Of a stretch of DNA of 39,240 nucleotides, positions 32,253 through 35,759 are shown piece after piece. Location of the stretch: the NCBI GenBank assembly GCA_945883775.1, contig CAMCYG010000008.1:1-39240 (forward strand), given 5' to 3'. The translations under genes and the position numbers were made by a program. The notes below the pieces were generated by a model. That model did not search any database, was not told the origin of the DNA, and was given only the letters and a program-made list of their open reading frames with translations. How positions within the stretch are numbered: the first letter of the stretch is position 1; the number at the start of each line of letters is the position of its first letter. This DNA is from Victivallis vadensis. Lineage in GTDB: Bacteria; Verrucomicrobiota; Kiritimatiellia; UBA8416; CAMCYG01.

Positions 32253-32432
32253 ACTTAATAAGGGCGTATTGCCGCTCTGCCGGGAACCCCTGCCGGCTTG
32301 ACCGGCAGGTGAACAAGACTGTTGGCAAATCAACCCCGAAGGTTAATTTGCTTTGGGCAACAGTCTTGTTCACCTGCGACACTAGGTCACAGGGGTCAAA
32401 CCCCGGCAGATCTGCAATGCGCCTACTTAATA
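32253..32432. mobile_element. MITE-like non-autonomous element: 164-bp palindromic body with imperfect TIRs and 8-bp target-site-duplication-like direct repeats
   Basis: ACTTAATA at 32253-32260 and 32425-32432 flush with TIRs AGGGCGTATTGCCGCTCTGCCGGG (32261-32284) and the reverse complement of CCCCGGCAGATCTGCAATGCGCCT (32401-32424); inner perfect 20-bp inverted repeat 32305-32324/32358-32377. Confidence 0.75.
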
Positions 32433-32475
32433 TGACTGCTTGAAAAACGACGCTCTTATGGTATATAAATCTTCC

Positions 32476-35273: not shown

Positions 35274-35759
35274 TTACTGTTCTATAACTTCGATGCATTC
35301 GCGAGTTGTCTCAACTGCGGCCGCCTTGCCGATGATATCGACGTTGAGCATGACCTTGATATTGCCTTTAAGCGATGACACTTCCCCTTCAATGCCGGCT
35401 AATGGGCCGTTGATTATCCTTACCTTGGTTCCTTTCTTGATTTTCTCTGCTGCGCCCATTTCAGGATCAACCGTGATGGCGGTTTTAATTTGATTAAGGG
35501 TTTTCAGCAGGCTTTCTTCATTTTCCGGTGCGATGAATCTAAGGACGAAATCGCTTCTCTTTAGCCCGTCTAAAAGGGTGGGTTCGATGAGTGCGAAAAT
35601 GTAGCCGGGAAACAGAGGAATCATCGTTGTGACCTTGCGGCGCTGGAATACCTTGGTTTTCTTGCGCAAAGGGAGGTAATGCTCGATGTTCATGACCGAG
35701 CAGTATCTTGCCGTTTTTTTCTCAGTTTTTGGCCGTAAATATAAAACCTGCCAACCCAT
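35274..35759 (-). CDS. NusG-like transcription antitermination factor (RfaH/UpxY/LoaP-type specialised paralog)
   Basis: GWQVLYLRPKTEKKTARYC, PLFPGYIFALIE, C-terminal KOW motif GTKVRIINGPLAGIEGEVSSLKG. Confidence 0.85.
   Translation of the reverse strand: MGWQVLYLRPKTEKKTARYCSVMNIEHYLPLRKKTKVFQRRKVTTMIPLFPGYIFALIEPTLLDGLKRSDFVLRFIAPENEESLLKTLNQIKTAITVDPEMGAAEKIKKGTKVRIINGPLAGIEGEVSSLKGNIKVMLNVDIIGKAAAVETTRECIEVIEQ

Follow-up and report, generated by a model that had tools for sequence, protein, structure and literature searches.

A probable ISKra4-family MITE with a class-wide inverted hairpin pair as its core

A palindromic element of 163 bp in the window (the whole 39,240-nucleotide stretch that was analysed) is most probably, at a probability of about 0.88, a non-autonomous transposon (MITE) with ends of the ISKra4 family (p-MULT 4), whose core is a hairpin pair found elsewhere in the class and which would be moved in trans by an ISKra4-type DDE transposase. 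The sequence-only reading of the window had already proposed a MITE. That proposal is supported by many dispersed copies, by conserved ends with target-site duplications (TSDs) and by an insertion sequence (IS) with matching terminal inverted repeats (TIRs) in a relative. Added to it here are the ISKra4 class of the mobilizing IS, a source for the core and a bias towards divergent gaps. The element is ordinary in kind as a MITE; its core is unusual, and its preference for divergent 5' regions is marked.

The element occupies positions 32262-32424 as a near-complete palindrome flanked by a direct repeat (Table 1). Its limits were set by the other copies, which start with GGGC and finish with GCCC; in the window copy, a C-to-T change has altered the final base of the right end. 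The flush direct repeat described earlier holds, but not its stated form of 8 bp around a 164-bp element starting with A, as the copies show 9 bp around 163 bp. Because the other copies have 9-bp TSDs, the 8 bp and the terminal A are best taken as a 9-bp duplication that carries one change. The terminal repeats, tip hairpin, asymmetric bulge, local side hairpin and perfect 20-bp arm of the earlier description were all found in the sequence, the two halves of the arm pairing with each other. A second local hairpin, CCTGCGAC-actag-GTCACAGG (32373-32393), lies opposite the side hairpin, with one such hairpin on each arm of the element. Core hairpin A reads TTCACCTGCCGGTCAAGCCGGCAGGGG on the minus strand. 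Both sides of the palindrome arms have changed at four pairs, and in alignment A1 the column pair 59/121, in the right half of the 20-bp arm, shows a change from T-A to C-G. The element has no coding capacity; the sole open reading frame of at least 100 amino acids across it is an antisense 113-amino-acid frame without support.

Table 1. Features of the window element and its right flank.
Feature	Position	Strand	Basis or remark
Left target-site duplication ACTTAATAA	32253..32261		8/9 identical to right copy; duplications of other copies 9 bp
Left terminal inverted repeat GGGCGTATTGCCGCTCTGCCGGG	32262..32284	+	Family consensus GGGCGCATTGCAGYTCTGCCGGG; ISKra4-type end
Core hairpin A with head, stem CCTGCCGG / CCGGCAGG, loop CTTGA	32287..32313	-	Class-wide hairpin pattern; covarying stem
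Perfect 20-bp arm, left half GCAGGTGAACAAGACTGTTG	32305..32324	+	Fold and sequence check
Tip hairpin and bulge	32325..32357		Fold; subfamilies differ most here
20-bp arm, right half CAACAGTCTTGTTCACCTGC	32358..32377	+	Fold and sequence check
Core hairpin B with head (TTCACCTGCGACACTAGGTCACAGGGG)	32369..32395	+	Class-wide hairpin pattern; covarying stem
Right terminal inverted repeat (AGGCGCATTGCAGATCTGCCGGG on minus strand)	32402..32424	-	Shared ends among copies
Right target-site duplication ACTTAATAT	32425..32433		Comparison of copies
Promoter-like site TTGAAA-18-TATAAA, upstream of epimerase	32440..32469	+	Predicted; matrix score 10.2

The copy-number search suggested by the sequence-only reading found the element dispersed over approximately 22 places in its own genome (an assembly of 2.66 Mb in 182 contigs, 89% complete), and not as a single copy conserved across species. 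The copies split into subfamilies. The window copy (L001) grouped with L002-L006, which are 89-95% identical to it, and a larger subfamily is 75-83% identical to the window copy and approximately 90% identical within itself. The copies at the end of contig C80 and the start of C93 share a flank and probably represent a single insertion on two overlapping contigs. When GGGCGCATTGCAG...CTGCAATGCGCCC are taken as the ends, direct repeats of 9 bp directly adjoin the element. Ten copies with both ends recognizable have a 9-bp TSD that matches at 7 or more of its 9 positions: all nine in L002, L009, L010, L013, L015 and L016, eight in L001, L011 and L012, and seven in L004. Alternative lengths of 7, 8 and 10 bp gave background values in those ten copies; in an eleventh, L007, 8 bp was the better fit (7/8). 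No empty site was recognized by joined flanks among the sequences compared, which included no genome of the same family, and a plasmid collection held no match to the element. A 98-bp relative of the MITE with the same type of ends and a rearranged hairpin interior also occurs in this genome (L167:491-588, G000:C106).

In the window, the neighbouring genes encode a lipocalin (PF08212) and an NAD-dependent epimerase (PF01370); these domain matches bear out the position given earlier for the element. These genes diverge, which puts the element in their shared 5' region. The epimerase ATG (32476) does lie 43 bp past the end of the 8-bp repeat, the distance given previously. The TTGAAA of the promoter-like site upstream of the epimerase is 15 bp past the right end of the element; a stricter consensus scan of the region did not list this site, and detected no consensus promoter and no terminator. 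Any effect of the window element on the expression of its neighbours is probably modest. Farther along the window, at 35274-35759 on the minus strand, a NusG-like protein (PF02357), possibly an UpxY-type antiterminator, is encoded near sugar-epimerase and glycosyltransferase genes.

A similar setting was found for most copies in the genome. With genes called by the same crude method around the copies and around 6000 random points in approximately 434 kb of the genome, 13 of the 18 intergenic copies had a divergent gene pair on their two sides and no copy had a convergent pair; of the intergenic bases, 25% belong to divergent gaps (p = 4e-5). This bias could reflect a preference at insertion or selection against other insertions, and the data fit both alike. 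Within 30 bp of the element, the best promoter-like score exceeded 8 in 6/11 copies, compared with 11% of controls (p = 0.003; p = 0.013 against random divergent points), with an E. coli-type matrix not derived from the host and p-values uncorrected over several distance windows. At a spacing of 13-17 bp, scores above 8 were obtained in two of the 11 copies, the window's included, versus 2.1% of controls, and the mean score did not differ from that of divergent controls (p = 0.25). Targeting at a fixed distance from promoters is thus unsupported for the copies as a whole. Leaderless promoters were considered as the reason for the short spacing to the ATG; 165 genes showed no such signature.

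The crowding of copies in divergent 5' regions could also be expected of a structured non-coding RNA or regulatory leader that was amplified and kept for its function, the TSDs and ends being a relic of past spread. The RNA-folding check proposed earlier is in keeping with this: as a single strand, 32253-32433 has a minimum free energy of -101.4 kcal/mol, far more stable than 200 shuffles (-54.1 +/- 4.1; z = -11.4). The arms altered on both sides at four pairs point the same way, but arm covariation has an alternative source, since template switching can also produce it in palindromes. In addition, there is no Rfam match at the gathering level, the region has neither terminator nor consensus promoter, and the window element would be absent from the epimerase transcript because the promoter-like site lies outside it. 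A functional RNA is accordingly considered unlikely.

The class of the mobilizing IS was approached through the ends. A TIR search of 347 genomes of the class, in which reversed control patterns gave no match, detected an inverted pair in G008, a genome of the same order, measuring 1976 bp end to end. This IS (C333:864-2839) is bounded by two perfect inverted copies of the 23-bp sequence GGGCGCATGGCAGTTCTGCGGGG, and the MITE terminal repeat GGGCGCATTGCAGYTCTGCCGGG matches these ends at approximately 20 of 23 bases. It encodes a 474-amino-acid transposase that matches the NCBI model for ISKra4, NF033572, at 206.7 bits, a narrow pass of the cut-off of 205, and PF06782 (UPF0236) at 27.7 versus a cut-off of 24.3. 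No clear TSD flanks this IS. It also carries a DUF6788 gene (PF20586; L159:915-1349, minus strand) on the strand opposite the transposase, overlapping the transposase start. The IS with matching TIRs called for by the sequence-only reading thus exists in a relative; in the MITE's own assembly, protein and HMM searches found no ISKra4 transposase. Repeated ISs are often missing from assemblies.

The ends and the transposase are joined by a second element, L101, of 186 bp, from Verrucomicrobia NC_groundwater_1112 (G058). It has the same ends as the MITE and the G008 IS, and almost directly after its left end come the codons for the transposase C-terminus, EAFLALITLHRNNRWSQLFP, which stand roughly as far from the right end as they do in the G008 IS. 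L101 is an internal deletion derivative that bridges the MITE ends and the ISKra4 transposase. Related loci in the same genome, such as L099:488-881, make up a second non-autonomous family of approximately 390 bp with the same ends. The ISKra4-like transposase of CSMAG_166 (G009), a genome of the same order through which the organism of the window is placed, indirectly, in the PVC group, was rejected as a partner, as its element has different ends. Lentisphaerota CSMAG_166 (G057 = G009) also has the same ends as the MITE on a different element with an inner TAATCC/TAATCG repeat (L096, L098, L100 and L102); two of its contigs break approximately 200 bp into that element, as expected of a repeated element that was left unassembled.

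The ISKra4 group is a prokaryotic Mutator-like group, p-MULT 4, with inverted repeats of 18-39 bp that have a conserved terminal C, and with duplications of 8 or 9 bp (Guerillot et al., 2014, PMC3942029). The 23-bp repeats, GGG...CCC ends and 9-bp duplications of the MITE agree with this description. TSD length by itself does not single out ISKra4, and a DDE-type MITE mobilized by an IS from outside ISKra4 whose family also makes duplications of 8-9 bp (e.g. IS256, IS1 or IS1595) would also accord with an assembly in which the ISKra4 transposase was not found. The TIR match to the G008 IS and the bridging derivative L101 speak against this, and an IS1595 partner was rejected because no IS1595-type transposase is present in three genomes; mobilization by another family is very unlikely.

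The interior of the MITE contains no recognizable transposase remnant. Searches for relatives of the element returned short matches only, nearly all within its hairpins. A hairpin pattern with a free inner stem, TTCACCTGCNNNNNNNGNNNGCAGGGG, with one mismatch allowed, occurred at 43 places in the MITE's own genome, each of them within or at a TIR-bounded copy or a fragment of one, and in 10 of 56 genomes of relatives, at 1-13 places each; the control gave none. Across 33 distinct hairpins 97% of the cells pair, and at the three free inner pairs the number of cells with changes on both sides, 39, was reached by none of 500 shuffles and by no slid control. The core of the MITE is an inverted pair of these hairpins, which is found in other genomes of the class without the MITE ends. 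In the four relatives richest in hairpins (G014, G019, G026 and G047), which have no ISKra4-type TIR with two mismatches allowed, up to four hairpins per set, two and two inverted and approximately 65 nt apart, form palindromes of approximately 320 bp, and the MITE core matches the inner pair of these sets. The palindromes (L254, L257 and L260-L265) have 8-bp stems with 5-nt loops, CTYGY and RCRAG, and neither a RAYT nor ISKra4-type ends were found with them.

The least probable alternative, a REP/REPIN-type element with incidental terminal repeats that is moved as single-stranded DNA by a RAYT (Y1), has in its favour the inverted hairpin doublet, as in REPINs (PMC3116915), and the Y1 transposases present in this genome and its relatives, but is highly improbable given 9-bp TSDs and 23-bp TIRs that indicate a DDE transposase, a head that reads TTCACC with no GTAG or CGTC tag, a single such hairpin near only one of 18 Y1 loci scanned, the confinement of all 43 own-genome matches to MITE copies or their fragments, and mostly divergent placement, opposite to that of REPs, which lie mostly between unidirectional and convergent genes (PMC3733652). 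A RAYT was also rejected as the mover of the core, and the label REP is unwarranted for the class hairpins, because no RAYT gene has them on both sides.

Under the preferred reading of an ISKra4-type MITE, a DDE transposase supplied in trans would bind both ends, excise or copy the element and insert it with a 9-bp stagger, preferably in upstream regions near promoters. The interior would be an inverted hairpin pair taken from, or common to, the hairpin repeat dispersed in the class, and its joining with the ends would let the whole element fold as one long hairpin. The window copy would leave the promoter-like site of the epimerase, beyond its right end, intact. As a tentative extension, the four-hairpin palindromes may be an undescribed mobile or structural element whose inner pair was captured by ISKra4 ends in the lineage of the window, the hybrid then spreading by DDE transposition and settling between divergent promoters.

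No description of ISKra4-family MITEs was found in the open-access papers searched. The present family offers a clear link from TIR to transposase and an intermediate formed by internal deletion. Full ISKra4 elements are known to target sites near promoters, and the family's preference for divergent 5' regions is in line with this, here in a tiny passenger of many copies. As the combination of its ends and a class-wide hairpin repeat in one hybrid suggests, DDE ends can pick up and amplify independent palindromic repeats.

Like other bacterial MITEs, such as MITEAba12 (PMC6382973), the element is short, non-autonomous, IS-derived, present in many copies and presumably mobilized in trans. It differs from MITEAba12 in its ends and in an interior that is a hairpin doublet, an independent repeat in the class, and not a recognizable IS remnant. 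With the ISKra4 ISs it shares GGG...CCC ends, near-identical inverted repeats, duplications of 8-9 bp and insertion upstream of genes, near promoters (PMC3942029). Several members of that group, although not all, have near-perfect repeats and go in at 13-17 bp from a sigma-A promoter, to either side of it (PMC3942029); for the MITE a fixed spacing of this kind is not supported, and it lacks a transposase gene and measures 163 bp versus at least 1.1 kb. The likeness to REPINs (PMC3116915) and to GTAG/CGTC REPs (PMC3733652) consists in an extragenic, inverted doublet of short hairpins that folds into a long hairpin. Unlike both, the MITE has DDE-type TIRs and TSDs, has no GTAG/CGTC tag and no flanking RAYT, and is biased to divergent rather than convergent or unidirectional gaps.
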